From positions 124,001-188,000 of the forward strand of contig NZ_JADNYM010000001.1 in NCBI RefSeq assembly GCF_015708085.1: a stretch of DNA of 64,000 nt, read 5' to 3'. Positions 49,152-64,000 of the stretch are shown here, piece after piece. Source of the DNA: Arthrobacter terrae. GTDB taxonomy: Bacteria > Actinomycetota > Actinomycetes > Actinomycetales > Micrococcaceae. Below the pieces are notes generated by a model that saw nothing but the letters and a program-made list of their open reading frames with translations, did not search any database and had not been told where the DNA came from. The translations under genes and the position numbers were made by a program. The number at the start of each line of letters is the position of its first letter. The stretch's first letter is position 1.

Positions 49152-49538
49152 ATGACACGTGAGGCCGTCAACAGCCCTCAGGTGCCTCCTGCGTTGGGGC
49201 CTTACAGTCAGGCGATCGTTGCCGGAGGGTTCGTGTTCTGCTCCGGTACGGCCGGAATCGACCCGGCGACAGGGTCGGCACCGGAGGGCGTTCAGGCCCA
49301 GACGGAGCAGGCGCTGGTCAACCTTCAGGCCGTCCTCGTAGCGGCTGGCTCGTCAATTTCAGAGGTGGTCAAGACTACGATCTTCTACGCCAACGTCGAT
49401 GACTTCGCCACGATCAACGAGGTCTACGCCCGGCACATGCCGACGCCGCCGCCGGCCCGCTCGGCGCCTGCAAATGTACGGCTCCCCCACGGGTTGTTGA
49501 TATCGATCGACGCCATCGCCGTCCTGCCTTCACGATGA
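49152..49538 (+). CDS. RidA family protein
   Basis: 128 aa, AAAGG before ATG 49152. RidA/YjgF trimer family: GPYSQAIVAGGFVFCSGTAGIDPATG near 17-42, and the conserved Arg in ANVRLPHGLLISIDAIAVL near 107. These proteins hydrolyse reactive 2-aminoacrylate and other enamine/imine intermediates. Its position beside the hut-like island suggests a role in clearing an imine or iminated intermediate of that pathway; this is inference. The family assignment is secure. Confidence 0.92.
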   Translation: MTREAVNSPQVPPALGPYSQAIVAGGFVFCSGTAGIDPATGSAPEGVQAQTEQALVNLQAVLVAAGSSISEVVKTTIFYANVDDFATINEVYARHMPTPPPARSAPANVRLPHGLLISIDAIAVLPSR

Positions 49539-49624
49539 CGGCTGTGCTTTGACGGGTCTTTCCCACCGGGCACTCGATCGTCTGTTCGGGCGCCGCGGGG
49601 CGAAGCGCTCTTATTTATACAGCC

Positions 49625-50227
49625 TCAGGTTTCCCACAATTCGATAATCGCCCAGCGTCCCTTCGTGGTCCCGTGCAGGACAAGTTCGGTGCTGCCCGCC
49701 GCATTGTTGATTTGCAGCAGATCGTTGTCGCCCAGCTCGATTTCCGGGTTTTTCGCGACATTAATGAGGACTGCGGGCCCGATGTTGTACACGAGGATTA
49801 TTGCCGCGTCAGAAAGGAATGGGCGGGACCGGGTGAGGACCGGCCATTGGATCCGGGCGGTGATTCTCTCAGCGCGGTAGATCAGGTTAAGGGCCCGAAC
49901 CGGATCTGCCCGCAATTCACACCTGGTCTCCACGGCGCCGTCAAAGCGGTGAACGTCAAACGCATGAAGCTCACGGCTCCCCTGTTCCCCGGTTCTCAGA
50001 CGCACCCCGCTTCCACCAAAAACCGTGATAATGCGCTGCATACCGGCAAAGGTGGAAAAGGTACTGTCCCTGGCAATAGCGGCGAGGGAGACCCGCCAGG
50101 CGTAATCGCCGTGGGACGTATCCTTGGTGATTTCGGAGGTTGTGCCAAGGCCATTGAGCCACGGTGTGCTCGTCCGGGCACCGGCGCGGTGGACGCTGAT
50201 GGTCATGGACGGGCTGCCGGACTCCAT
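49625..50227 (-). CDS. hutD: HutD/Ves family protein
   Basis: 200 aa from the ATG at 50227 (overlapping the stop of the preceding M20 gene by one base); ATG 50206 is an alternative. HutD features: TPWLNGLGTTSEI near 22-34, WRVSLAAIARDSTFSTFAG, and ITVFGGSGVRL. HutD is a bicupin linked genetically to histidine utilisation and thought to limit hut induction, possibly by binding N-formylglutamate. It is the last gene of the minus-strand pair divergent from hutH. Confidence 0.85.
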   Translation of the reverse strand: MESGSPSMTISVHRAGARTSTPWLNGLGTTSEITKDTSHGDYAWRVSLAAIARDSTFSTFAGMQRIITVFGGSGVRLRTGEQGSRELHAFDVHRFDGAVETRCELRADPVRALNLIYRAERITARIQWPVLTRSRPFLSDAAIILVYNIGPAVLINVAKNPEIELGDNDLLQINNAAGSTELVLHGTTKGRWAIIELWET

Positions 50228-51489
50228 CACGGCTGCGCGTCGTGGAGTACCCCGGCACCGTCGGCGCTTTCCGATTCTGCCATTCCTGCCCGCTGAAATG
50301 CCAGCTCGGCCAGGCAAGCCGCCGCTTTGGGCAGAATTGCATCGTCGAAGGCGGCACGCGGCGAGTGGTTCATCGGAGCCAGAGCGGGGTCCTTCGCCGG
50401 GGAGGCGCCCAACAACAGGTAGGCGCCGGGAACCTCGCGGAGCACATGGGCAAAGTCCTCGGACCCGGCCACCGGATGCTCCATTTCACGGAAGCTTTCC
50501 GCGCCAAAGGTGCCGGTGATAATACGTCTGGCGTATTCAAACTCTGCCGGAGAATTCACCGTTACCGGGTAATCGGGTGCCTGGGATATTTCCGCGTCCA
50601 GCCCGTGCGCGGCCGCGATTCCCCGGCATAACCGCTTGACATCGGATACCAGTTTTTCCCGGTGCGCCGGCGAAAACATCCGAAGCGTTACATCGAAGGC
50701 CGCCGTCTCCGGGATGATCACACCGAGTGTACCGGCCTGTATGCGCCCTACGGTTGCGACGACGGGGTCGAAGACGTCAAATCCACGGGTGACCAACGTC
50801 TGCAGACCCAGGACCATCTCACATGCGACGGGAACGGGATCTTTGGCTTGGTGCGGTGCGGAGCCGTGGCCGCCCTCACCCCGGACGGTCACAAAGAGTT
50901 CGTCGCAGCCGGCCATCAGTGTCCCTGGCCTGGAGTAGAACACACCGCTGTCATAAACTCCTGAAAAAACGTGCAGGCCGAAGGCCGCCTCGACTCTGCG
51001 CCCGGCCGCCTCCAGCACCCCGTCCTCAACCATAAAGCGCGCGCCGTCGTACGCTTCTTCCCCCGGCTGGAACATAAAGACGACGTCCCCGCAAAGATCC
51101 GCCCGCCGGTCATGGAGAATCCGCAGTGCCCCGTAGAGCGCCGCCATATGCAGATCGTGCCCGCACGCATGCATGGACCCGCTGATTTCGGAGGCATAGT
51201 CCAAGCCCGTAGCCTCCGTCACCGGAAGGGCATCCATATCACCGCGAAGCAGGACCACCGGTCCGGGGCACCCGTCCGGTGTTAATTTTCCGCCCCGAAG
51301 CACACACGTCACCGAGCTTTGCCGGGTTCCGGGGAAGACCTCGAGCCCGTCCAGCCCGGCCAGTTTTTCCAGAATCAGCCGCTGCGTTTGGGGCAGGTCC
51401 AGGCCAATCTCGGGAATGCGGTGCAATTGGCGGCGTAAGTCAACTAGTTCCACCCGCAGTTGCTCGGCGGAATCTTCAATAGCGGTCAT
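50227..51489 (-). CDS. M20 family amidohydrolase (AbgB/hippurate hydrolase-like)
   Basis: 420 aa from the ATG at 51489, preceded by GAGGGATGAG; the longer frame to 51546 is less likely. Metal-binding and catalytic residues of the M20D type: MHACGHDLHMAAL (Cys and His), QPGEEAYDGA (Glu-Glu) and GLHVFSG (His), with the dimerisation domain in the middle. Relatives deacylate N-acyl or aminoacylated compounds. Divergent orientation from hutH suggests it feeds the island by freeing an imidazole amino acid from a conjugate; this is inference. Confidence 0.88.
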   Translation of the reverse strand: MTAIEDSAEQLRVELVDLRRQLHRIPEIGLDLPQTQRLILEKLAGLDGLEVFPGTRQSSVTCVLRGGKLTPDGCPGPVVLLRGDMDALPVTEATGLDYASEISGSMHACGHDLHMAALYGALRILHDRRADLCGDVVFMFQPGEEAYDGARFMVEDGVLEAAGRRVEAAFGLHVFSGVYDSGVFYSRPGTLMAGCDELFVTVRGEGGHGSAPHQAKDPVPVACEMVLGLQTLVTRGFDVFDPVVATVGRIQAGTLGVIIPETAAFDVTLRMFSPAHREKLVSDVKRLCRGIAAAHGLDAEISQAPDYPVTVNSPAEFEYARRIITGTFGAESFREMEHPVAGSEDFAHVLREVPGAYLLLGASPAKDPALAPMNHSPRAAFDDAILPKAAACLAELAFQRAGMAESESADGAGVLHDAQP

Positions 51490-51812
51490 CTCATCCCTCG
51501 TGATTTCAAACGTGGCAACGGTCAGCAGACGGAGACCGGGTTGCACCCGAGCGCCCCTTGCTGGAGTGTATGCCCCGCTTCTGCTTTTAACGATTCCAAA
51601 TTATCAGGCAGCAGGAATTCCCCCATAAGCATCTGCGTCCGCATTACGAAGCAGATTCCCGGAGTTTTTTCGGTCTACCTGGCGGACCGGGAGATGGATG
51701 GTTCCACCAAACGATAAGCCATCAACGGGTGGATTATCGTTCCATGAGAAGCGTTGCTTGCCATCTCCCATAACGTGATTAGCGTTACATAAATCTACTA
51801 GGAGGCTAAACG
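51490..51812. other. Divergent regulatory region of the hut-like island
   Basis: 323 bases between the M20 gene and hutH. It holds the TAACG-N7-CGTTA dyad and the hutH Shine-Dalgarno AGGAGG (51800-51805 region). No gene. Confidence 0.6.
51771..51787. promoter_or_regulatory. Dyad TAACG-N7-CGTTA, probable hut operator
   Basis: A 17-bp dyad whose arms are exact inverted repeats, 26 bases before the hutH start codon. This is a position where a repressor would block the leader or promoter. The cognate regulator gene is not in the window. Confidence 0.45.
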
Positions 51813-53453
51813 GTGATCGAAATTGGAAATGCACCCCTGACACTGGAGGATTTCATGTCGGTGGTGCGCGGCCGTGAGTTGGTGTCCATCTCCCCTGCTG
51901 CCATTGAAGCGATGCAGGCCAGCGAGCAATGGGTGTCGGCCATCATGGATGATATGCGCGACGGGAAAGAAGTTGCGGCCATCTACAGCATCAACACCGG
52001 CTTTGGGTCCCTGGCCGGACGTCAGGCGTTCGACACGGTGGAGGATGCCTCGGAGCTCTCCCGCCGGCTCATCATCTCCAACGCCAGTGGTGTGGGGCGT
52101 CCGCTGGATGAGGAAGTGGTCCGGGGCTCAATGCTCGTCCGCGCCGTCAGCCTCACCCGAGGGTACTCCGCCGTCCGCCGCGTTGTTCCCGAAACGCTCC
52201 TGACGATGCTGGAAAAGGGCGTCTTTCCTGCCGTCCCGGAGTTCGGTTCCCTCGGCGCGAGCGGGGACCTCATCCCGCTGGCACACCTGGCCATTGTCAT
52301 GACCCGGCCGGCAGGTGAGGACGTGGCCGTGGACAGCGGTGAGGCATACCTGGACGGCCGGCTGGTGGACGGCATCACCGCCATGCAGGCCGCCGGCATC
52401 GAACGCATCGTGCTGGGTCCGAAGGAAGGCCTGGCACTGGCTAACGGGACCTCGTTTTCGGCAGCCCAGGCCGCGCTTGCCCTGGCGGATGCCGAGAACC
52501 TGCTGGAGACGGCGCAGATTACCGCGGCCATGTCCATTGAGGCATTGACCGGGTTCGGGGATGCCTTTATCCCGCAGATCCACCAGGCCCGCGGCCACGC
52601 CGGGCAGATTGAGGTCGCTGCCCGAATCCGTGAGCTGCTGGCCGGCAGTGAGTTTATTGACGGCAGCGAAGAGCAGGACCCCGTCCGCCAGCCGCCGCAG
52701 GACGCCTATTCGCTGCGCTGCACGCCACAGGTTTTAGGTGCAGTGAAGGATACGCTGCGCTTTGTCCGCGGGATTGTGGAGACCGAGATCAACGCGGCAA
52801 CCGACAACCCGCTGATCTTCCCCGATCTTCCGGCATCACGGACGCTAAAAGCCGTCTCGGGCGGAAACTTCCACGCAGAGTATGTCGGCTTTGCCTCGGA
52901 CTTCCTTTCGATTGCCGTCACGGAAATCGGCAGCATCGCAGAACGGCGGCTGTTCAGGCTCGACGACGGTACGCTGAACCGCGGGTTGCCGGACATGCTG
53001 ATAGCCAGCGAAAAGGTCGGACTGGACTGCGGCTACATGCTCCCGCAGTATCTGGCGGCCGCGTTGGTCTCGGACTGCAAAACCTTGGCGCATCCGGACA
53101 GCGTGGATTCCATCCCTACGTGTGCGAATCAGGAGGACCATGTCTCGATGGCCAACAACGCCGGACGTCATGCCCGGCAAATTGTCTCGAACATCGAAAA
53201 CGTCATCGGCATCGAGCTCCTGATGTCGGCCCAGGCGCTGGAACTGCGGCTCACGGCCGCCGGCAAGGACGTCTCCGCCCTCTCACCCAGCAGCAGGGCA
53301 GTCCTGGAACTGCTCCGGTCCCACCGTTCGGCCGACGGCCGGCTGATTGACCACATAACCCAAGACACCGTCCTCTACCCCCGGGTCCGTGCGGCCGTCG
53401 AGCTCGTGCACAGCGGTGCCGTGGCCGACGTCGTCCGTTCCACCCTCAACTAA
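51813..53453 (+). CDS. hutH: Histidine ammonia-lyase-like enzyme (divergent)
   Basis: 546 aa, GTG start with AGGAGG. Aromatic amino acid lyase family: the MIO prosthetic group is formed from Ala149-Ser150-Gly151, catalytic Tyr58 in YSINTGFG, the Arg of QDAYSLRC, and the Glu of NQEDHVSM. In histidine ammonia-lyases the segment LVLSHAAGVG supplies a His to the imidazole; here it reads LIISNASGVG, so Asn90 replaces it. A PAL-like insertion (EEQDPVRQPPQDAYSLR) precedes the Arg, and it is ~35 aa longer than usual HutH. Elimination of ammonia from a histidine-related substrate is likely, but the substrate may not be histidine. Confidence 0.85.
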   Translation: MIEIGNAPLTLEDFMSVVRGRELVSISPAAIEAMQASEQWVSAIMDDMRDGKEVAAIYSINTGFGSLAGRQAFDTVEDASELSRRLIISNASGVGRPLDEEVVRGSMLVRAVSLTRGYSAVRRVVPETLLTMLEKGVFPAVPEFGSLGASGDLIPLAHLAIVMTRPAGEDVAVDSGEAYLDGRLVDGITAMQAAGIERIVLGPKEGLALANGTSFSAAQAALALADAENLLETAQITAAMSIEALTGFGDAFIPQIHQARGHAGQIEVAARIRELLAGSEFIDGSEEQDPVRQPPQDAYSLRCTPQVLGAVKDTLRFVRGIVETEINAATDNPLIFPDLPASRTLKAVSGGNFHAEYVGFASDFLSIAVTEIGSIAERRLFRLDDGTLNRGLPDMLIASEKVGLDCGYMLPQYLAAALVSDCKTLAHPDSVDSIPTCANQEDHVSMANNAGRHARQIVSNIENVIGIELLMSAQALELRLTAAGKDVSALSPSSRAVLELLRSHRSADGRLIDHITQDTVLYPRVRAAVELVHSGAVADVVRSTLN

Positions 53454-53466
53454 GGAGCACCCCACC

Positions 53467-55242
53467 ATGTCACTGACCACCGACCAAACAGTCTCGATCA
53501 CCACCAAGCATCCGGGCGGCAACGCTACCGGAATTGCGTTCGGTGAACTTCCCGCACAAAAGCCGGAGATCCTTTATGAGGTCAAAGCACAGCGCGGTGA
53601 CGAATTGCGCTGCAAAGGCTGGAAGCAGGAAACCATCCTGCGGATGCTGGAGAACAATATGGAACTCTCCGAGCACGTCGAAAACCTGGTGGTTTACGGC
53701 GGCATCGGCAAGGCGGCGCGGAACTGGGAGTCGTATTACGCGATCGTCGACTCGCTGAAGAACCTGGCGGATGACCAGACCCTGGTGGTCCAGTCCGGCA
53801 TGCCGGTGGCCGTGTTCGACACCCATGAGCTTGCGCCCCGGGTAGTCATGGCGACCACAAACTTTGTCCGGCCGGACTGGAAGACGTTCTACGACCTGCA
53901 GGACAAGAACCTGACAATTTTTGCCCAGTACACGGCGTCGCCATGGGAGTACATTGGCACGCAGGGAGTCATCCAGGGCACGTTTGAAACGCTCCGCTCC
54001 GTCGCTGACATTCATCTGGACGGCAGCTGGGTCGGGAAGATCCTGTTCTGTGCGGGCATGGGTGGCATGGGCGGCAACCAGCCGCGTGCCATGACAATGC
54101 TCGGCGGCGTTGCGATCTGCGCGGACGTCGACGAACGGATCATCAACAACCGGATCAAGGTCGGCTATGCGGATGTGCTCGCCGATTCCATCCCGCACGC
54201 GATCGAGCTGGCGCAGGAGGCCGCGGCTGCCAAAAAGCCGCTGGGTATCGCCGTCGTGGCAAATGCCACCGAACTCTTTGAGTACGCTCTGGAGCATGAC
54301 GTCCGCCCCGACGTCGTCACGGAAATGACCCCGGCCCACGACCCGCTGGCCTATGTGCCGATCGGCTACACCGTCCTGGAGGCGGAAGAATTCCGCAAAA
54401 AGGACCGGGACGCCTACTTCGAGATCTCCCGTACTGCCATGGTCCGCCAGCTCACCGCGATGAACCGGTTCTTCGATAACGGCGTTCCCACCTTTGAGTA
54501 CGGGAACCAGATCCGGCGCGAATGCCAGCTGCATGGTTTCGAGGACGCGCTGAAAATCCCCGGATTCGTCTCCGCCTACCTGCGTCCGCTGTTCCTGGAG
54601 GGCCGCGGACCGTTCCGCTGGACCTGCACGTCCGGGGATCCCAAAGACCTGGCGCGGCTGGATGACCTTGTTCTCGAACTGTTTCCCGATGATGAAATTG
54701 CCACCCGCTGGATCACCCTGGCGCGGAAGCATATTCCCATTGAGGGACTGCCCGCGCGGGTCTGCTACCTCGGTTTCGGCCAGCGGAAGAAGTTCGGTCT
54801 GGCGGTCAATGAACTGATCCAGCGCGGTGAGGTGAAGGGGACGGTGGCGTTCTCCCGGGACAATCTGGACTCCGGTTCGATCATCAATCCGACCTTCGAA
54901 TCGGAAAATATGCCCGACGGATCCGATCTGATCTCCGACTGGCCGTACCTCAACGGCCTGCTCAATGCCTCGGGCATGTGCGACCTTATCGCCATCCAGG
55001 CGAACTACGCGATGGGAGACTCGGTGCACACCGGCGTCACCATGATCGCCGACGGAACCGACACTGCCGCCTACCGGCTCAAGGCCTGCCTGACGGTGGA
55101 CAGCGGCATCGGAGTCGTCCGGCACGCACAGTCCGGCTATGCCCGGGCCAAGGAAGTCGCCAACACAGTCGGTCCGGCCGAGGGCGTCACCATTCCGCTG
55201 TGGTGGACCCCGACAGCCACTTTCGGACCGGAACAGCCCTGA
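53467..55242 (+). CDS. hutU: Urocanate hydratase-like enzyme (divergent)
   Basis: 591 aa from ATG 53467 with AAGGAG. The NAD-dependent urocanase scaffold is intact: YGGIGKAARNW near 76-86, QYTASPWEYIGTQG, CAGMGGMGGNQPRA, FEYGNQIRRE, YLRPLFLEGRGPFRW and catalytic-type Cys433 in PARVCYLGFG. The C-terminal loop that normally reads LHHGGGVGMGFSQHSG is instead IQANYAMGDSVHTG (510-523). The protein is also longer than the usual ~555 aa at its C-terminus. It probably hydrates a urocanate analogue; the usual product would be imidazolonepropionate. Confidence 0.85.
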   Translation: MSLTTDQTVSITTKHPGGNATGIAFGELPAQKPEILYEVKAQRGDELRCKGWKQETILRMLENNMELSEHVENLVVYGGIGKAARNWESYYAIVDSLKNLADDQTLVVQSGMPVAVFDTHELAPRVVMATTNFVRPDWKTFYDLQDKNLTIFAQYTASPWEYIGTQGVIQGTFETLRSVADIHLDGSWVGKILFCAGMGGMGGNQPRAMTMLGGVAICADVDERIINNRIKVGYADVLADSIPHAIELAQEAAAAKKPLGIAVVANATELFEYALEHDVRPDVVTEMTPAHDPLAYVPIGYTVLEAEEFRKKDRDAYFEISRTAMVRQLTAMNRFFDNGVPTFEYGNQIRRECQLHGFEDALKIPGFVSAYLRPLFLEGRGPFRWTCTSGDPKDLARLDDLVLELFPDDEIATRWITLARKHIPIEGLPARVCYLGFGQRKKFGLAVNELIQRGEVKGTVAFSRDNLDSGSIINPTFESENMPDGSDLISDWPYLNGLLNASGMCDLIAIQANYAMGDSVHTGVTMIADGTDTAAYRLKACLTVDSGIGVVRHAQSGYARAKEVANTVGPAEGVTIPLWWTPTATFGPEQP

Positions 55243-55243
55243 T

Positions 55244-56473
55244 ATGCCGCAGCCAACCCACCAGCGCCGCGTTGATCTAGTGATCACCGGAGCCGCGGAG
55301 CTGCTCACCTGCGCCGCGGATGCGTCCGATCTGATCGGACGGATCCGCGGCGGCGGGGTAGCGGTCGACGGCGGTACCATCACCGCCGTCGGCGATGTCA
55401 GCGGTTTCAGCGGGCGCCGGGAAATCGACGCCGCCGGGAAGGTGGTGCTGCCGGGCTTCGTGGACAGCCACACGCACGTGGTCTTCGGCGGCGACCGCGC
55501 CCTCGAATATGCCGCAAGGGTGGCCGGCCAGGTTCCGCCGGCCGGGGCCTCCGTCGGGATTGTGGGCACGATGGCTGACACGCGTGCGCGATCCGTGGAC
55601 GAACTGGTCGCGTCTGCGGCCGGCAGGATCAAGGAGATGATCTCCTCCGGCACTACGACGCTGGAAAGCAAGACCGGCTACGGCCTTGACACGGCCACCG
55701 AGGAGCGACTGCTGGAGGTGAATGCGCACCTTGCGGCCCTGTTGCCGGCCCGGATCATGTCGACATACCTGGGCGCACACGCCATTGACCCGCAACGTGA
55801 CGGCGCGGAGTGGACCGAGGACATCCTGGCCCAGCTGACGGAGGTAGGGCGTGAGGGCAGCGCCGCGTTCAACGATGTCTACTGCGATACAGGCTATTTC
55901 TCCTTAGAACAGTCCCGGAGCATTCTTGAACAGGGACGCCGCCACGGTCTCCGGCCGAAGATCCATTTGGACGCCTACAGCCACACCGGTGCCGCGGAGC
56001 TGGCAGCCGCGGTGGGCGCGGTCAGCGCCGACCATTTGAACTACACCACCGACGACGAACTGCGTGTCCTCGCCAAAGCCGGGGTGACCGGCGTCTACAT
56101 GCCGTGCCTGGAATTCGCGGTGCAGCACCCCGCACCGCTGGATCCCCGGAGACTGTATGCCGCGGGCATGGAGGTGGCTCTTGCCACCGACGTCTGCCCG
56201 GGTTCTTGGACCACCAGCATGCACCTGGCCGTGGCCATGGGCTGCCGGATCGGGGGCATGACCGTCGCGCAGGCCTTGCGGGCTGCGACCTACGGTGGCG
56301 CATGCGCCCTGGGCCTGTCCGCCACGATAGGATCGTTAGTTCCCGGCATGGCGGCCGACATTCAGGTGCTGGACGTCCCGTTCTACGAGCACATTGCGTA
56401 CCGACCGGGACTCAATTCCACGCAAACCGTCATCATCAATGGATCCATCGTTACAGGAGCGGGCGTTGAATAA
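55244..56473 (+). CDS. hutI: Imidazolonepropionase-like amidohydrolase (divergent)
   Basis: 409 aa from ATG 55244, one base after the urocanase stop; the frame from 55139 lies inside the previous gene. Metal-dependent amidohydrolase: DSHTHVVFGGD metal motif, LESKTGYGLDT, YLGAHAID, second metal/catalytic motif KIHLDAYSHTG (His241), SADHLNY, and ATDVCPGSW with the catalytic Asp. Canonical enzymes have Glu or Gln where Ala244 stands here (HAD-E/Q). It opens the imidazolone ring to N-formimino-glutamate in the normal pathway. Confidence 0.85.
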   Translation: MPQPTHQRRVDLVITGAAELLTCAADASDLIGRIRGGGVAVDGGTITAVGDVSGFSGRREIDAAGKVVLPGFVDSHTHVVFGGDRALEYAARVAGQVPPAGASVGIVGTMADTRARSVDELVASAAGRIKEMISSGTTTLESKTGYGLDTATEERLLEVNAHLAALLPARIMSTYLGAHAIDPQRDGAEWTEDILAQLTEVGREGSAAFNDVYCDTGYFSLEQSRSILEQGRRHGLRPKIHLDAYSHTGAAELAAAVGAVSADHLNYTTDDELRVLAKAGVTGVYMPCLEFAVQHPAPLDPRRLYAAGMEVALATDVCPGSWTTSMHLAVAMGCRIGGMTVAQALRAATYGGACALGLSATIGSLVPGMAADIQVLDVPFYEHIAYRPGLNSTQTVIINGSIVTGAGVE

Positions 56474-57806
56474 CTCATTTTTCTGCGAGTATGCATGGCT
56501 CGGCGGTGACGACGTCACCGCGAATGTCCTCATTACCGTCGAGAACGACAGAATCACCGCGGTAACCCCTGACGCGCAATGTCCGCCTGCCGCACGACGG
56601 CTTACCGGACTGACCATGCCCGGCTTCGCCAACGCCCATTCGCACGTCTTCCATCGGGCAATCCGGGGACGCGGCCAGCAGGGAGTGGACAGCTTCTGGG
56701 CGTGGCGGAACCTGATGTACTCCGTCGCCGGAACCCTGACTCCGGACTCCCTGTACGAGCTGGCGCTGGCAACCTATGCGGAAATGTCCTTGGCGGGCGT
56801 AACCAGTGTCGGAGAGTTTTTTTACGTCCACCACGACCCGGCCGGGCGCCGGTACAGCAATCCGAACATTATGGGTGAGACGGTTATCCAGGCCGCCGAA
56901 GATGCTGGACTGCGGATCACCCTGCTGGATACGTGCTATCTGCAGGGCGGAGTTGATGGCCGGCAGCTGACGGGGGTGCAGCAACGATTCACCGACGGCT
57001 CCTGGGAAAACTGGGCGAAGCGCGTCGGCGAGCTGAAGGAAACGGCAACGGCCCGCGCCGGGGCGGCGATCCATAGCGTGCGCGCCGTGCCGCGGCACGC
57101 GTTGGGTCCGGTGGCCGCATTTGCCCGGGCACACAACATGCCCGTGCATGCCCACGTTTCGGAGCAACCTGCCGAAAACCAGGACTGCCTCGACGTCTAC
57201 GGACTGACTCCCACCCAGCTGCTGGCCGAAGCCGGGGTGCTCGGTGCGGACATGACGTCCGTTCATGCCACCCACCTGACAGAGAAGGACGTCGCGTCCT
57301 ACGGGGCGACGGGCACGAGTATCTGCATGTGCGCCACCACCGAGAGGGATCTGGCCGACGGCGTCGGACCGGCCGGGCAGCTCTTAGAAGCCGGCGCGCG
57401 GCTCTGCGTCGGCAGTGACGCCCACATGATGATCGACCTGCTCGAAGAGGGCCGGGCGATCGAACTGGACCTTCGGCTCACCAGCGGCAGCCGCGGACAC
57501 GTCAACGCCGCCCAGATCGCCGATGCAATAACTGCCGGCGGGGCTCACTCGCTGGGCTGGGATGCCGGCAGCATTGCGGCCGGTAAGCTTGCCGACTTCA
57601 CCGTGATCGATCTGCTCTCGCCGCGCACGGCTGGGGCTGCATCGGGTGAGATGCTCCCGCACATTATCTTTGCCGCCGCTGCTGCAGATGTCCGCACGGT
57701 GATCCGCGGCGGCAAAATCGTGGTGGACCAGGGCACGAACATCCGCGTCCCTGACACCGGCGCTGAGCTCAATAAGGCAATCTCAAAGGTCATCGGCGCG
57801 CTCTAA
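56466..57806 (+). CDS. hutF: Formimidoylglutamate deiminase-like protein
   Basis: 446 aa from the TTG at 56466, with GGAG just upstream, overlapping the hutI stop by 8 bases; ATG 56439 would add nine residues. Actinobacterial HutF features: NAHSHVFHRAIRG metal motif, DSFWAWRNLMY, LLDTCYLQGG, IHSVRAVP, HVSEQPAEN and GSDAHMMIDL with the catalytic Asp. HutF releases ammonia from N-formimino-glutamate to give N-formylglutamate. It is closer to canonical HutF than its three upstream neighbours are to their own families. Confidence 0.9.
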   Translation: MNNSFFCEYAWLGGDDVTANVLITVENDRITAVTPDAQCPPAARRLTGLTMPGFANAHSHVFHRAIRGRGQQGVDSFWAWRNLMYSVAGTLTPDSLYELALATYAEMSLAGVTSVGEFFYVHHDPAGRRYSNPNIMGETVIQAAEDAGLRITLLDTCYLQGGVDGRQLTGVQQRFTDGSWENWAKRVGELKETATARAGAAIHSVRAVPRHALGPVAAFARAHNMPVHAHVSEQPAENQDCLDVYGLTPTQLLAEAGVLGADMTSVHATHLTEKDVASYGATGTSICMCATTERDLADGVGPAGQLLEAGARLCVGSDAHMMIDLLEEGRAIELDLRLTSGSRGHVNAAQIADAITAGGAHSLGWDAGSIAAGKLADFTVIDLLSPRTAGAASGEMLPHIIFAAAAADVRTVIRGGKIVVDQGTNIRVPDTGAELNKAISKVIGAL

Positions 57807-57841
57807 GCAGCGCCGCGGACAACAGCTAAGAAAGAGGGTCC

Positions 57842-59059
57842 ATGGAACGGCCGATGCAGCTACTCGGGCAGATCTCTGAGGTTGGCAAGGACTCCCGGCG
57901 CGGCGGATACAGCCGGCCGGTGTTCTCCACGGCCGAGACGGACCTGCGGGGCTGGTTTGTCGCCGCCGCTCAGCAGCGGGGGCTGCAGGTCGAAACCGAC
58001 CGGAACTCCATCATCTGGGCCTGGTGGGGGGAACCAGGTCCGGACGCAGTCGTCACCGGAAGCCATCTGGATTCGGTTCCGGGCGGGGGCGAGTACGACG
58101 GACCCCTCGGGGTTGCCAGTGCGCTCTCGGCGATTGACCTGATGCGCCAGCGCGGCCAGGAGCCGCGCCGCCCGCTGGCCGTGGCGGTGTTCCCCGAGGA
58201 AGAGGGATCCCGCTTTGGCGTCGCCTGCATCGGTTCGAGGCTGCTGTCAGGTGCCATTGATCCGGACAAGGCCCGCAACCTCACCGATGCCGACGGCAAC
58301 ACCCTCGCGGAGGTGTTCCGCACCAATGGAACGGACCCGGAACACCTTGGCATGGACAGCGAACGCCTGGCCGGAATCGGCCGCTTTGTTGAGTTGCACA
58401 TTGAACAGGGACGCGGCCAGATTGATCTGCAGGCACCCGTTGCCGTGGCCTCCTCGATCCTTGGCCACGGCCGGTGGAAGCTTTCCTTCGGTGGTCAGGG
58501 CAACCACGCCGGGACAACCCTGATGAATGACCGCTCCGATCCTATGGTCGCCGCCGCCCAGGCTGTGGTCGATATCCGCCGGATCGCCGCGGCTCATCCA
58601 GGGGCGCGCGGAACGGTGGGCCGGATTTCACCGATCCCCGGTGGAACGAACGTCATTGCCTCACGGGTGGACCTTTGGATGGACGTGCGGCATCGGACGG
58701 ACGAGGTCACGGCCGCCATCGTTGCGGAAATACACGCCGCCGGGCGCCGCATTGCCGCGGCCGAAGGCTGCACGCTCACGCTGTCCGAGGAGTCGCTCAG
58801 CCCTACCGTCCAGTTCCACCCGGGGCTGGCGTCGGAGCTGCTCGGGGTATTGGGGGATGTGCCGGTGCTGGAATCCGGAGCGGGACACGACGCTGGCGTG
58901 CTGGCCGCCAGCCTGCCGACGGCAATGCTCTTCGTCCGCAATCCCACGGGTGTTTCGCATGCGCCGCAGGAGGAGATCGAGACCGCCGACGCCGACGCCG
59001 GCGCGGTGGCGCTGGCCGATGTCCTGGCACATCTTACCGACGCGGAAGCGGCCCCCTGA
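57842..59059 (+). CDS. M20 family amidohydrolase, allantoate/N-carbamoyl-amino-acid type
   Basis: 405 aa, AAGAAAGAGG before ATG 57842. M20C-type zinc enzyme: TGSHLDSVPGGGEYDGPLG (His and bridging Asp), EEEGSRFG (Glu-Glu), ELHIEQG (His), QGNHAGTT and ESGAGHDAGVLA (last His). Members hydrolyse allantoate or N-carbamoyl-L-amino acids. Because the operon lacks a dedicated HutG, this enzyme probably performs the final step from N-formyl- or N-carbamoyl-glutamate to glutamate. This is inference from position. Confidence 0.88.
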   Translation: MERPMQLLGQISEVGKDSRRGGYSRPVFSTAETDLRGWFVAAAQQRGLQVETDRNSIIWAWWGEPGPDAVVTGSHLDSVPGGGEYDGPLGVASALSAIDLMRQRGQEPRRPLAVAVFPEEEGSRFGVACIGSRLLSGAIDPDKARNLTDADGNTLAEVFRTNGTDPEHLGMDSERLAGIGRFVELHIEQGRGQIDLQAPVAVASSILGHGRWKLSFGGQGNHAGTTLMNDRSDPMVAAAQAVVDIRRIAAAHPGARGTVGRISPIPGGTNVIASRVDLWMDVRHRTDEVTAAIVAEIHAAGRRIAAAEGCTLTLSEESLSPTVQFHPGLASELLGVLGDVPVLESGAGHDAGVLAASLPTAMLFVRNPTGVSHAPQEEIETADADAGAVALADVLAHLTDAEAAP

Positions 59060-59102
59060 TGACTGAACCGGGGACGAGTTTCCGTCGCCGGGGCACGCCG
59101 GT

Positions 59103-60176
59103 CTAGACGTCGGGAACGCCGGTCCAGAGGTCGAGCACGCCGGCATACTCGTTGAGCACATCGGCGACGGCGGCGTTGGCCTGCGCGGATCCGACGGTGA
59201 TGCGCACTCCCTCCAGCGGAAAGCAGCGCACCCCTATCGACGCTGCGGCGCAGCGTTCGGTGAAGGCGCCGCTGTCGGTTCCTATGGAGAGCCAGAGGAA
59301 ATTCGCAGCCGATGCCGACACCGGTAGGCCAAGACCGCGGGCCAGCTGGATGAGGGCATCACGTTCGCGAACGGTCTCCTGCACCTGGGCCTGGATCTGT
59401 GTGTGCTGATCCAGCGAGGCGGATGCGGCGGCGATGGCCATCCGGCCCACTGTGAAGGGCAGGGCCACCCGCCCCAGCACATCGATGATCGCCGGGGCCG
59501 AAATGGCATAACCAACCCGCATTCCGGCCAGGCCGTGGGCCTTGGAAAAGGTCCGCAGGACCGCGACGTTGGCGTGGCTCCGTAGTAGTTCTGTCCCGTC
59601 GAAGGCACTCCGGGCGGGGACGAACTCACGGTAGGCTTCGTCCAGAATCAGCAGGCAATCCGCCGGCAGACCGGCCACAAATGTGCGCAGCAGGCCGGGG
59701 CTCAGCGCCGTTCCGGTGGGATTGTTCGGGTTGCAGAGAATGACGACGCGCGTCCTGGGACCCACGCGGCGGGCCATCGCCGCCAGGTCCTGATCGTGGC
59801 CGATGAGCGGAACCGGCACCGGCACGGCACCGGCGGCGCCAATGATGATCGGATAGGCCTCATAGGAACGCCAGCCAAAGATCACCTCGTCCCCGGGGCC
59901 GGCAAAACCTCTGATCAGCTGTTCCAGGACCGCCACCGACCCTGCGCCGACCCAGACGTTCTCCGGATCCACGCCGCTGTCCGCAGCGAGGCGCCCCGTC
60001 AGCGCGTAAGGGACCAGCGGCGGGTACAGATTCGGCGTTGCGGCGGCCGCTGAAATCGCCTCGACGACCGAACGCAGCGGCGGGTAGCTGTTTTCGTTCG
60101 AGGACAGGCGGTACCGCAGGGGAACATCCGGCGGTCTGGACGTTCCATATCCGTCGAGGGCAAGAATGTTGGGCAT
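59103..60176 (-). CDS. HisC-like PLP-dependent aminotransferase
   Basis: 357 aa from the ATG at 60176. Fold type I aminotransferase of the HisC/aromatic class: RLSSNENSYPPL, substrate-cofactor motif CNPNNPTGT near 158, DEAYREF and PLP Lys in TFSKAHGLAGMRVGY near 225, and the C-terminal Arg in GVRITVGSA. HisC relatives accept histidinol phosphate or aromatic/imidazole amino acids. Its location in an operon with a polar amino-acid importer, beside the hut-like genes, suggests transamination of an imidazole amino acid in catabolism rather than histidine biosynthesis. Confidence 0.88.
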   Translation of the reverse strand: MPNILALDGYGTSRPPDVPLRYRLSSNENSYPPLRSVVEAISAAAATPNLYPPLVPYALTGRLAADSGVDPENVWVGAGSVAVLEQLIRGFAGPGDEVIFGWRSYEAYPIIIGAAGAVPVPVPLIGHDQDLAAMARRVGPRTRVVILCNPNNPTGTALSPGLLRTFVAGLPADCLLILDEAYREFVPARSAFDGTELLRSHANVAVLRTFSKAHGLAGMRVGYAISAPAIIDVLGRVALPFTVGRMAIAAASASLDQHTQIQAQVQETVRERDALIQLARGLGLPVSASAANFLWLSIGTDSGAFTERCAAASIGVRCFPLEGVRITVGSAQANAAVADVLNEYAGVLDLWTGVPDV

Positions 60177-60199
60177 TCCGCCCGGACCTGCGGGGCCCG

Positions 60200-61008
60200 T
60201 CACAGTACTTTTCCGGGATTGAGGATACCCGCCGGGTCCAGGGCCGCCCTGATCTTGTCCATGAGTACCACTCCGTTTCGGTGATCCAGGCGCAGGGAGC
60301 CCTTCTTCCACATGCCGATCCCGTGTTCGCCGGTGCAGATCCCGCCCATGGCAACGGCCCGTTGGACCAGACGGTCGTTGACGGCTTCCGCCGTGGCGTG
60401 TTCGACGGCGGAAGCCGGGTCGAGGACAAAGGCAAGATGGAAGTTCCCGTCGCGGACGTGTCCTGCAATGGGCGCGAATACTCCCGAGGCTGCAATGTCA
60501 GCACGGGTTTCTTCGATGCAGTCGCTGAGCCGGGAGGTCGACACACAGACCAGCAGGGCCTCGCCCTCGGAGGCGATGCCGTTGAAGCGCTCCAGAGCAT
60601 CCTTCACGGCGAAACCGCGACGACGGCGGAACATACCGTGCGGAACGACACTGCCGCCGTCGCTGTCCTCTCCGGTATGCCGTAAAGCCTGACGGTGGCC
60701 TCCGTGATAATGCCAGCGTTCCTTCGGAGCCGACAAAAAGGGCCCGTCGGGTCGTACCCGGCGGACGACTTACGGGCCCGGCCGTTCGGAACCGCCGGAA
60801 CACCGTGCCGCAAACACACCTTTTGGGTCAGCGCAACGTCCGCGGTGGACGAGCACAGGACAACCGCGTCGGGCAGGGACCACTCGTGCGCAGACACGTC
60901 GTGGCCCCGTGCCCGCCTGGTTTTTTCATCCGTGCACTCCTTGGCGCCCAGAGCCGCCTGCAGTTCCTTTACGGCGGCCGCGCTATCCGCGCCTGCCGGC
61001 GATGCCAT
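60200..61008 (-). pseudogene. FAD-linked oxidase (D-lactate/glycolate dehydrogenase-like), broken
   Basis: The ATG at 61008 overlaps the ATPase stop, as for a coupled gene, and the N-terminus is good (GHDVSAHEWSLPDAVVLCSSTADV). About 90 residues of the FAD-binding domain are missing after VCLRHGVPAVP. ARKSSAGYD and FVGSEGTL follow, then a 1-base deletion near 60723 before GIITEATVRLYG. Another frame change near 60615 precedes a shortened middle. The C-terminus reads IAGHVRDGNFH, then ICTGEHGIGMWKKGSL, ending at 60200. The total is 809 bp against ~1.4 kb for intact relatives. It cannot make an active 2-hydroxyacid dehydrogenase. Confidence 0.88.
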
Positions 61009-61772
61009 CAGAGGACCTTGGCGAGGAAGCTCTGTGTCCGTGCATGATCCGGATCAGAGAGCACCTTGGACGGCGCTCCACTTTCCACCAGGACCCCTTC
61101 GGAGAGAAAGTGCACGGTGTCCGCCACTTCCCGGGCGAAGCCCATTTCATGGGTCACCACGACCATGGTCATCCCCGATTCGGCCAGATCCTTCATGACG
61201 TCCAGCACCTCCCCCACCAATTCCGGGTCAAGCGCTGACGTCGGTTCGTCGAAGAGCATAAGTTCCGGTTTCATGGCCAGCGCGCGCGCAATCGCGACAC
61301 GCTGCTGCTGGCCGCCGCTGAGCTGGCTCGGGTAGTTGTGCATCTTATTTCCCAGACCCACGCGCTCCAGCAAGGCCCGTCCCTCCTCGACAGCCTGCTG
61401 GCGGCGGACGCCTTTAACAATGATGGGACCCTCGGTGACGTTTTCAAGGGCTGTCCGGTGCGGAAACAGGTTGAACTGCTGAAACACCATGCCTATCGAC
61501 GCACGGCGCAGGGCGATTTCCCTTTCCTTCAGCTCATGGAGCTTATTACCGACGAGGCGGTAACCGACCCGGTCGCCGTCGACCCACATCTGGCCGCCGT
61601 CGATTTTTTCCAGGTGGTTTATACAGCGCAGGAAAGTACTCTTCCCGGAGCCGGACGGTCCAATCAGGCACGCAACTTCGCCGGCCGCCACCTCGAGCGA
61701 TATTGCCCGGAGGACCTCGACGGCGCCGAAGGACTTACAGACGGCCGACGCCTTGAGCATGGGCTTGTTCAT
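61008..61772 (-). CDS. Polar amino-acid ABC transporter ATP-binding protein
   Basis: 254 aa from the ATG at 61772 with GGAG upstream; longer frames overlap the permease gene. Walker [10 protein letters not shown] near 40, Q-loop [10 protein letters not shown], signature [15 protein letters not shown] near 150, Walker [14 protein letters not shown], and the switch His in VVTHEMGF. This is the GlnQ/HisP type that drives import of polar or basic amino acids. Coupled by ATGA to the permease gene. Confidence 0.95.
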
Positions 61773-62779
61773 GACGGGATCTCCGTATTCGCCGAGGGTG
61801 CGCTGGTCGTAATTCCGCTGGCCGGTCCGTTCGCTGGAACGGCCGGACCACTCGTGTCCTTGTCCAGCTTGTCCGTGTCCACCGTGTTCTTGTCCTGCTT
61901 GTTTTTGTCCACGCGAATGGCACTTAGCGGGCTGAAGCCACGGCCATAGCGCCGTTCCAGAAAGTACTGCGCGACGGACAGCACGGCGGTGATGAACAGA
62001 TACCAAAGGGCGGCGACAATCAACAGCGGAATGGTCTGATACGTCCGTGAGTAAATCAACGATGCAGAGGTCAGCAGTTCCGAATATCCGATGACCAAAA
62101 CCAACGACGTCTGCTTGAGCATGCCAATGGTTTCGTTCCCCGTCGGCGGAATGATAATCCGCATTGCCTGCGGAAGAACTACCCGCCGCATGGTCTGCAG
62201 CCTCGTCATACCAATGGATTTGGCGGCTTCTGTCTGTCCTGGTGTCACCGATGAAATACCCGAGCGCACAATCTCGGACATGTACGCGGCCTCGTTGAGC
62301 CCCAGCCCCAGCATCGCGGCCATAAACGGTGTGATCAGGCTGTTGGTGTCGAAGGAAAACAGTTCCGGGCCCAGCGGCACGCCCAAGGCGATCCGCGGAA
62401 CGAGTGCCGAGAGAAAGAACCAGAAGAGAAGCTGGACCAACAGCGGAGTACCGCGGAAGAACCAGGCGTAAAACCATGCCGCCTTGGATACGATGAAATT
62501 GTCGGACAAACGGCCGACGGCGACCACGATGCCCAAGACGATGCCGATGATCATCGCGAGTACCGTCAAAATCAACGTATTCAGCACCCCCATCAGAATG
62601 GGATCAGCGAAAAGGTACTTGCCGACGACGTCCCATTGGAAGCGTTCATTGGTTGCCATTGCGTACAGCAGGAGCGCTACAAGCACCAGCACCACTGTCG
62701 CGGTGATCCACCGTCCGGTGTGCCGCGACGGGACGACCTGCGCGGGTTCGGCCTCCTCCATTGTCAGGACGGCACTCAT
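61769..62779 (-). CDS. Polar amino-acid ABC transporter permease
   Basis: 336 aa. HisMQ-type inner membrane permease with a first segment at about 26-45, a cluster of segments between 60 and 290, and the EAA loop [21 protein letters not shown] near 185-205. The C-terminal ~55 residues form an unusual charged and Pro/Ser-rich tail with Lys/Asp repeats ([18 protein letters not shown]). Coupled by ATGA to both the substrate-binding protein and ATPase genes. Confidence 0.93.
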
Positions 62780-63678
62780 TTTGTCCCGCCGTTAATGGGG
62801 AACTCCGTGACGGCGCCCTGTTCCTGGCCGTACTTTTTCAGAATCTCCCCGTAGGTGTTATCCGCAGCTATTTCCTGCATGCCCTTTTGCACGGCCTTCT
62901 GCAGCTCGGTGCTGCCCTTCGGGAACACTATGCCGAACGGGCCGGACATATACGGGCTCAGCATTTCAAGCTTTCCGCCCGAATCCTTGGCCACGGAGGA
63001 GCCGGACGTTGAGTCAAGCAGGACCACATCGACCCGTCCGGTCGTCAGGGCAAGGATCGTCTGATTCTGACCGGGGAAGATCGTGACATCGACGGCCGGC
63101 TTGCCTTCCGCTTCGCACGCCTTCGTTTGGGCGTCCGCATCCTCGGTTTCGGTGGTTCCCTTAACTATGCCGACTTTCAATCCACAGGTATCAGCCAGCG
63201 TGGCAACCTTTTTGGGGTTCTCAACGGTCCGCAGGATGCCGGCACCGGCCTTGAAGTAGTCGACGAAATCGACTTCTTTCTGCCGCTCCAAGGTGTCGGA
63301 CATCGCCGACATCGCCATGTCGTAGCGCGCGGATGCTAGACCGGGGATGATCGCGTCGAACGAAATATTATTGAACTTGATGGAAATTCCGAGCTTCTTC
63401 TCCAAGGCATCGGCAATTTCACGGTCGATGCCGATCACGGTCTTGCCGTCGGCATCGAAGGTTTCAAACGGCGGATATTCCACATTGCTCGCTATGTTCA
63501 GCGTGCCGCTTGACTGGATCGCAGCGGGCAGCAGGCTGTGCAGCGGTGCGGCGGTGCCGGCATTTCCGCTTTGGGCAGCAGACGAGCCCCCGCCACATCC
63601 GGCCAGCGAGAAGGCCAGGGGAAGCGCTACGAGTCCCGCCGTGATGGCGGCTTTTTTACTGCGGATGGACCGTGACAT
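62776..63678 (-). CDS. Polar amino-acid ABC transporter substrate-binding lipoprotein
   Basis: 300 aa from the ATG at 63678 with GGAG at good spacing; the frame continues to 63798 without support. Lipoprotein signal peptide ending LAGC. Family 3 solute-binding protein: ASNVEYPPFETFDADGKTVIGIDREIADAL, the Arg-Asp of ASARYDMAMSAMSDT that binds the amino-acid backbone, and GIVKGTT. With the permease and ATPase it imports an amino acid, plausibly the substrate of the adjacent hut-like island. Confidence 0.93.
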   Translation of the reverse strand: MSRSIRSKKAAITAGLVALPLAFSLAGCGGGSSAAQSGNAGTAAPLHSLLPAAIQSSGTLNIASNVEYPPFETFDADGKTVIGIDREIADALEKKLGISIKFNNISFDAIIPGLASARYDMAMSAMSDTLERQKEVDFVDYFKAGAGILRTVENPKKVATLADTCGLKVGIVKGTTETEDADAQTKACEAEGKPAVDVTIFPGQNQTILALTTGRVDVVLLDSTSGSSVAKDSGGKLEMLSPYMSGPFGIVFPKGSTELQKAVQKGMQEIAADNTYGEILKKYGQEQGAVTEFPINGGTK

Positions 63679-64000
63679 GAGATCTCCATTCATAATGTCA
63701 ACTGCGTTCACGGGCGGACACCACGTGGCCGGTGCTGCAATGGCCGACGCCCAACACGTTTTGTGCCGAATATCACAGTCGCTGCTCCTGACGAGCATAT
63801 GAACCTATATCGGCGCCGACAATGAGCGTTTTTCAGCCACTGAGAATGTTAAGGTCGCAGCTGCCCTCCATCCGCGGCCTTGCAGGCAGCTGCAAATACA
63901 CGGCGAACCCCGCCATTGCAGGCGCGGTTGCTGTCCGCGGCAGCCCGCTGCCCCGGCTGATGCGTCGAATCCTTGACGACGTCCCTTAGTATTTGAGAAT
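63679..64000. other. Upstream region of the amino-acid ABC operon
   Basis: 322 bases without a gene. A possible minus-strand promoter (TTGTCG, 17 bases, TATGCT) lies at 63794-63822, and a 9-bp inverted repeat, GCAGCTGCC (63857-63865) / GGCAGCTGC (63885-63893), is 19 bases apart just upstream of it. Confidence 0.45.
63794..63822 (-). promoter_or_regulatory. Candidate promoter of the ABC operon
   Basis: On the minus strand TTGTCG and TATGCT are separated by 17 bases, about 115 bases before the substrate-binding protein start codon. The inverted repeat immediately upstream could be a regulator site. Confidence 0.35.

Follow-up and report, generated by a model that had tools for sequence, protein, structure and literature searches.

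The hut-like operon and its canonical counterparts

The genome of Arthrobacter terrae (4.43 Mb) carries a group of genes related to histidine utilization (hut) genes in a stretch of 64,000 nt within a 282,845-base contig (C1:124001-188000; "the window" hereafter means this whole stretch). Its nearest named relatives are Arthrobacter sp. H14-L1 and Paenarthrobacter sp. PH39-S1. The core of the group is a tight operon of five genes, HutH-HutU-HutI-HutF-M20, at 51813-59059 of the forward strand, in which the successive genes are separated by a 13-base gap, a 1-base gap, an 8-base overlap and a 35-base gap. Judging from its sequence, this operon is probably a dedicated catabolic route for an N-tau-substituted histidine, most likely N-tau-methylhistidine. 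A sequence-only reading of the window had described an island of hut-like genes that may act on a modified imidazole, and all the genes it named were found with open reading frames (Table 1).

Table 1. Genes and gene remnants of the hut-like cluster, with the operon listed first and positions counted from the first base of the window.
Feature	Position	Strand	Basis or remark
HutH-like MIO ammonia-lyase	51813-53453	+	profile score and active-site residues
HutU-like hydratase, distinct subfamily	53467-55242	+	profile score and site residues
HutI-like ring-opening amidohydrolase	55244-56473	+	profile score and residues
HutF-like iminohydrolase of a cluster-specific lineage	56466-57806	+	catalytic motifs kept
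M20 amidohydrolase (PRK09290.1-4 type)	57842-59059	+	profile match; partner of canonical HutF in relatives
RidA-like family protein	49152-49538	+	profile match; neighbour gene
HutD family protein	49625-50227	-	
M20D amidohydrolase	50227-51546	-	divergent from hutH, upstream of the operon
HisC-like aminotransferase	59103-60311	-	PRK03321, 381 bits (cut-off 374)
Remnant of GlcD-like FAD-linked 2-hydroxy-acid oxidase	60203-60987	-	between HisC and the importer
ABC importer ATPase	61008-61772	-	
ABC importer permease	61769-62779	-	
ABC importer substrate-binding protein (family 3, polar amino acid type)	62776-63798	-	
IclR-type regulator	about 63993-64769 (L004 1994-2770)		starts at the window end, directly after the importer

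The genome holds a canonical hut set elsewhere. A second HutU and a second HutH are encoded on contig C4, adjoining an IclR-type gene (893 bits for hutU and 648 bits for hutH). The second HutI, on C23, narrowly misses its cut-off (295 bits against 298), and a HutG encoded on C12 passes (268 bits against 229). HutF is matched nowhere in the genome but in the window. Window HutH, HutU and HutI share 40%, 44-45% and 37% identity, respectively, with the canonical copies. The chief objection to the sequence-only reading, that the island might be the only hut set of the genome, thus falls away. The genome has a hutH/hutU/hutI-like trio additional to a canonical hut set, as would be expected for degradation of N-tau-methylhistidine. 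A scan of named genome contigs gave 103 confirmed stretches, of which the best 80 were kept as related loci; many of them end at contig ends, so that all counts of accessory genes given here are lower bounds. In 20 genomes that we picked from these loci, mostly isolates, the window type of HutU is accompanied by a HutU of another lineage in 20 of 20, the latter being in pieces in two of them (G297 and G313). The canonical set and the extra HutU both support the central idea that a modified imidazole is broken down in a hut-like manner.

Altered ring-contact residues in HutU, HutH and HutI

The window HutU belongs to a subfamily found in Actinomycetota, Bacillota, Thermodesulfobacteriota, Pseudomonadota and others, with 58-100% identity to the window protein across the best 80 loci. 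In site numbers that we take to be those of P. putida, the window HutU keeps Tyr52, Arg362 and Cys410 and is changed from Arg454 to Phe, from His443 to Asn, from Met to Tyr in the GQMTA motif and from the first His of HHGGG to Gln; in the B. subtilis chain, Arg454 and His443 are numbered 451 and 440. These changes recur in the 79 of 80 loci that are readable, where position 454 is occupied by Phe (77 loci) or Met (2 loci), and both Asn443 and the Tyr of the GQMTA motif are found in 79/79. Met, His443 and Arg454 are all present in 15 of 15 canonical rows, namely the B. subtilis chain 2fkn, the genome's own copy and 13 others that we picked from the 20 tested genomes. In a quick tree of 45 author-picked rows, the 27 subfamily rows form a single clade with a value of 100 in the Shimodaira-Hasegawa-like approximate likelihood-ratio test (SH-aLRT). 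This clade is separate from the chains 7ned and 8q9u, named urocanate hydratase in the PDB, which we take to be the thiourocanate and S-methyl-thiourocanate hydratases; 7ned has Ile and 8q9u Ala at position 454, both keep His443, and their grouping together is unsure, both branches being long. The subfamily is of one origin and has spread over several phyla. In a plasmid collection with 695 matching records, the best 15 listed include an unannotated Streptomyces megaplasmid at 84% identity and two Burkholderiales records at 57-59%, the remaining 12 being at 44-48%.

The window HutH has Asn in place of His83 (P. putida numbering), and keeps the Ala-Ser-Gly triad of the 4-methylideneimidazole-5-one (MIO) group together with Y53, N195, Q277, Y280, R283, F329 and E414. 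It reaches 513 bits against the hutH equivalog, below the cut-off of 539 which the genome's other HutH passes, and lies above the cut-off of the broader PRK09367 subfamily. Residues were counted per locus from the best tblastn match to HutH or HutI anywhere in the locus. A HutH match is present in 57 of the 80 loci, position 83 is readable in 56, and 50 of these 56 are without His (Asn 19, Asp 19, Cys 11, Ser 1), including the strongly diverged lyases of L030 and L064, which both have Cys83 and further active-site changes. The six that keep His83 are all from Pseudomonas and represent one variant with other partner genes. Among readable loci, Y53 is kept in 56/56, N195 in 53/55, Q277 in 54/54, R283 in 54/54 and E414 in 52/52.

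The history of position 83 was followed on a quick tree of 68 HutH rows in which this position was masked and from which short rows and rows more than 98.5% identical had been removed beforehand; the test leaves out L030_12 and L064_3, whose branches are very long, and four Pseudomonas rows. All 41 cluster copies are without His83 and all 23 non-cluster copies have it, and the tree calls for a minimum of 5 changes at this position. Forcing all copies without His83 into one clade costs 251 log units (p 4e-5 in the approximately unbiased (AU) test, which presupposes a group chosen in advance). Phylogeny had been proposed as a check in the sequence-only reading, and it gives one clade for the HutU subfamily and rejects one for the cluster HutHs. 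Asp83 lyases of Bacillaceae are sisters of the His83 lyases of Bacillaceae, and the Ser83 lyase of L062 nests among proteobacterial His83 copies. Loss of His83 in cluster HutHs appears from this tree to have arisen repeatedly. Residue 83 presumably faces the distal edge of the ring (N-tau/C2), and we take His89 of tyrosine lyase to be its counterpart. The His89Phe change of tyrosine lyase switches selectivity for the ring (PMC9002059), and the H82L mutant of the Geobacillus histidine ammonia-lyase, altered at the matching position, is inactive on histidine (PMC11432326).

The window HutI has Ala where Glu or Gln is expected at position 252 and its GGGI loop is replaced, with metal-site motifs kept. 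Position 252 is Ala in 61 and Cys in 6 of the 67 loci with a HutI match, against Glu or Gln in the solved HutI chains and non-cluster HutIs compared. It had been noted at the outset that the lyase, the hydratase and the ring-opening enzyme are altered at substrate-contact positions; these alterations are real, and their conservation across phyla indicates that they are not due to chance. The Asp of the ATD motif in HutI is usually regarded as catalytic. Asn replaces it in 36 of the 66 partners that could be read, and likewise in the genome's canonical HutI.

The last two enzymes had both been described as ordinary, a description that suits the M20 and does not suit HutF. Among the 295 genomes of the family searched, 97 carry HutF and 5 carry the HutU subfamily; identity to the window HutF is 75-100% in these 5 and 42-50% in the other 92, and HutF of at least 75% identity is thus confined to genomes with the subfamily HutU. 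HutF therefore forms a cluster-specific lineage. The M20, predicted to be an N-formylglutamate deformylase, is 59.5-67% identical to the M20 beside HutF in 25/25 of the canonical HutF loci returned (of 92). The enzymes that would meet the ring or the imino group have thus diverged, and the M20, which would meet only N-formylglutamate, has diverged less. Such a least diverged M20 is expected if the substituent is lost, together with the imino nitrogen, in the reaction of HutF.

Candidate substrates

In the route that we favour, the HutH-like lyase would remove ammonia from N-tau-methylhistidine to give N-tau-methylurocanate, and the HutU-like hydratase would convert this into N-methyl imidazolonepropionate. 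The HutI-like enzyme would then open the ring to N'-methylformimino-L-glutamate, the HutF-like enzyme would hydrolyse it to N-formyl-L-glutamate and methylamine, and the M20 enzyme would release formate and L-glutamate. The catalytic motifs are intact, the ring-contact residues are altered, the subfamily extends across phyla and a canonical hut set is separate; the N-tau position, the methyl group and the liberation of methylamine by HutF are what we infer. HutI and HutF, or FTCD and FchA in anaerobes, need a formimino carbon (CH at C2), so that C2 should be unsubstituted, and if residue 83 faces the distal edge, N-tau is the position that remains. The imino nitrogen of formiminoglutamate comes from N-tau; HutF would therefore release a group on N-tau as an amine, which for a methyl group is methylamine.

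A route for N-tau-methylhistidine has reportedly been described by Beliaeva, Atac and Seebeck (ACS Chem Biol 2022), in which HutH-, HutU- and HutI-like enzymes from Bacillus terra and from soil bacteria are said to yield glutamate and N-methylformamide. These three kinds of enzyme would be shared with the window operon, whereas the ending predicted for the window is methylamine, formate and glutamate via HutF and M20. Because of this different ending, the operon looks like a new variant of the reported N-tau-methylhistidine route. The same HutU subfamily is carried by three Bacillaceae loci (L034, L035 and L091), with LysR, HutU, HutI, a PepT-like M20, HutH and an antiporter-family transporter, a gene set that would suit the N-methylformamide ending. 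The introduction of PMC11432326 names N-tau-methylhistidine as a substrate of histidine ammonia-lyase, citing Beliaeva et al.

Several findings weigh against a route for N-tau-methylhistidine. Curated models accept the window HutU (622 bits, hutU cut-off 375) and HutI (329 bits, hutI cut-off 298) as ordinary enzymes; HutF retains the catalytic motifs that were compared, its specialisation resting on lineage, and the conservation of the M20 may reflect recent recruitment alone. On the HutH tree, change counts are unable to separate gain from loss, and the sign test, with no more than 4 independent pairs, gives p 0.125. P. putida mutants similar to the Geobacillus one are active on histidine according to the same paper (PMC11432326). 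No HutH match was found in 23 of the 80 loci and no HutI match in 13, many loci ending early. In two of the 20 tested genomes, G306 Desulforhopalus and G311 Pararhodobacter, His83 is present in each HutH match found, position 83 having been read in some, not all, of the lyase matches under the cut-off. The subfamily HutU thus lacks a matching lyase in these two (loci L058 and L084), which may be without the lyase or may import methylurocanate from outside. Other small N-tau substituents fit the residues too. Finally, a search of the genome found no copper amine oxidase, and for gamma-glutamylmethylamide synthetase (GMAS) only glutamine-synthetase-like matches below the cut-off, which leaves the fate of methylamine unexplained.

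Four alternatives have to be considered. The first, which we regard as unlikely, is an N-tau substituent other than methyl, or main entry as a 2-hydroxy acid through GlcD or flavin mononucleotide (FMN)-dependent oxidases and HisC. Genes suited to such an entry are present in part of the 80 loci (HisC 13, GlcD-like 7, FMN-dependent hydroxy-acid dehydrogenase 5, LarA-like 3, AcnX-like 4), but the majority of loci are without them and GlcD is decayed in the A. terrae genome, while a larger N-tau group would presumably need more space than the change from His to Asn provides.

Less likely again is an N-pi-methylated histidine, as in anserine, for which HutF would yield N-formyl-N-methylglutamate and M20 N-methylglutamate. 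HutI and HutF chemistry would still be workable here, and the M20D peptidase or acylase beside the operon could open the dipeptide. However, HutH His83 presumably faces the distal edge, away from N-pi, and the final M20, which would have to handle an N-methylated product, is the least diverged enzyme. Moreover, the diverged FchA beside FTCD in anaerobes would be superfluous for a normal formimino group, and an N-methylglutamate dehydrogenase was not recognised among the few annotated neighbours, no search having been aimed at it.

Much the same low probability, or slightly lower, is given to a second enzyme set acting on ordinary L-histidine, such as one that is regulated differently. The window operon shares with canonical hut the order of the chemistry, the folds and the catalytic motifs, and differs from it in the ring-contact residues of HutH, HutU and HutI. 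The curated cut-offs passed by HutU and HutI and the two genomes that pair the subfamily HutU with His83 lyases only would suit this explanation. It is opposed by the HutH scores (the window copy falls below the hutH cut-off that the canonical copy exceeds), by the repeated loss of His83 in cluster HutHs where non-cluster copies, often of the same genomes, keep it, by the identical pocket change in every readable subfamily HutU, and by the presence of this HutU as an extra copy in all 20 tested genomes.

Ergothioneine or another thio-imidazole is very improbable, and was set aside on curated cut-offs and missing partner genes. The known hut-fold side branches for thiourocanate and S-methyl-thiourocanate are likewise hut-derived routes for a modified imidazole, and Arg454 is likewise replaced in the two chains presumed to belong to them, but the window HutU has another residue at 454 and another pocket, scoring 578 bits against the thiourocanate hydratase cut-off of 930 and 616 against 880 for S-methyl-thiourocanate hydratase. 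The final M20 scores 268 bits against the ErtE cut-off of 520, the window cluster has no ErtD- or ErtE-type genes, and an ErtD-like gene is found in 6 of the 80 loci, all Pseudomonas. Ergothioneine routes use hydantoin chemistry, whereas HutI and HutF imply that C2 departs as a formimino group. Among the substrates first proposed, N-methylhistidine, in its N-tau form, therefore fits best, and the thio-imidazoles are disfavoured by both cut-offs and C2 chemistry.

Neighbouring genes, related loci and the wider pathway

The importer, the HisC-like aminotransferase and the M20D amidohydrolase that had been assigned to the surroundings of the operon are present, and so is RidA, which has a match in only 1 of the 80 related loci; it is not conserved with the cluster and was ruled out as a member of the pathway. 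M20D may free the amino acid from an N-acylated derivative or a dipeptide. The HisC-like protein reaches 248 bits against the TIGR hisC model, under the cut-off of 277, and is a possible entry point from a 2-oxo acid analogue. Of the GlcD-like oxidase, an enzyme linked to flavin adenine dinucleotide (FAD), the window has fragments in two frames, parts of the gene being absent; L017 has it as an open frame of 457 aa, and L027 carries a homologue. The three-gene ATP-binding cassette (ABC) importer spans 61008-63798, downstream of the operon on the opposite strand. The IclR-type gene past it, which has a match in 11 of the 80 related loci, is likely the regulator of the cluster.

Related loci differ in their partner genes. 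HutF is found in 29, FTCD in 26 and FchA in 28 of the 80 loci. Pseudomonas loci L078-L083 combine a HutU of 58-59% identity with a His83-type HutH and with ErtD-like and M20 matches; in L078 the ErtD-type protein scores 696 bits (cut-off 600) and the ErtE-type 610 (cut-off 520), and a deaminase-type amidohydrolase lies between HutU and HutH. This Pseudomonas variant may handle a C2-substituted histidine ring. In alphaproteobacterial L041, L045, L089 and L093, FMN- and/or FAD-type 2-hydroxy-acid oxidases and HisC stand beside HutH, which suggests entry from a lactate-type (imidazolelactate) analogue. Near the subfamily HutU of some anaerobes (L043, L058, L061 and L063) stand genes for aconitase X, in 4 loci, and for a LarA-like lactate racemase, in 3. 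MttB-like methyltransferases with open frames occur in Desulfobacterales-type L042, L054 and L094, that of L042 scoring below the pyrrolysine-enzyme cut-off, and a corrinoid protein is found beside the cluster in the actinomycete locus L032. Hercynine, with its trimethylated side chain, was considered on account of the MttB-like genes near some Desulfobacterales loci and was rejected, because HutU and HutI would then meet ordinary urocanate. Peptoniphilus L073 and L074 have two FTCD in one cluster, and L073 (P. asaccharolyticus) also has two FchA, one scoring 106 bits and its neighbour 180 against a cut-off of 275. The FchA of L073 that lies further from the curated model might conceivably serve a modified formimino group in a folate branch, but the scores of the two FTCD are nearly equal (457 and 455 bits).

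A broader reading, which we put forward only tentatively, is that of an old methylhistidine pathway with a single HutU lineage in several phyla, into which HutH would have been recruited 4-5 times with loss of the same residue. The pathway would have three endings: HutF with methylamine in Actinomycetota and Alphaproteobacteria, folate-linked FTCD with a dedicated FchA in anaerobes, and a peptidase-like M20 in Bacillaceae. Lactate and pyruvate analogues would enter it in some lineages through a 2-hydroxy-acid oxidase and an aminotransferase of HisC type.

Since curated models name the subfamily HutU and HutI as ordinary histidine enzymes, such annotations are probably wrong, and the recurrent loss of the same HutH residue offers a simple sequence rule for spotting lyases of this kind. 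Breakdown of actin and myosin gives rise to N-tau-methylhistidine, a stable product that is usually regarded as metabolically inert. If the proposed reading is true, a widespread route to glutamate and methylamine would tie the turnover of animal protein to the one-carbon (C1) and methylamine cycles.

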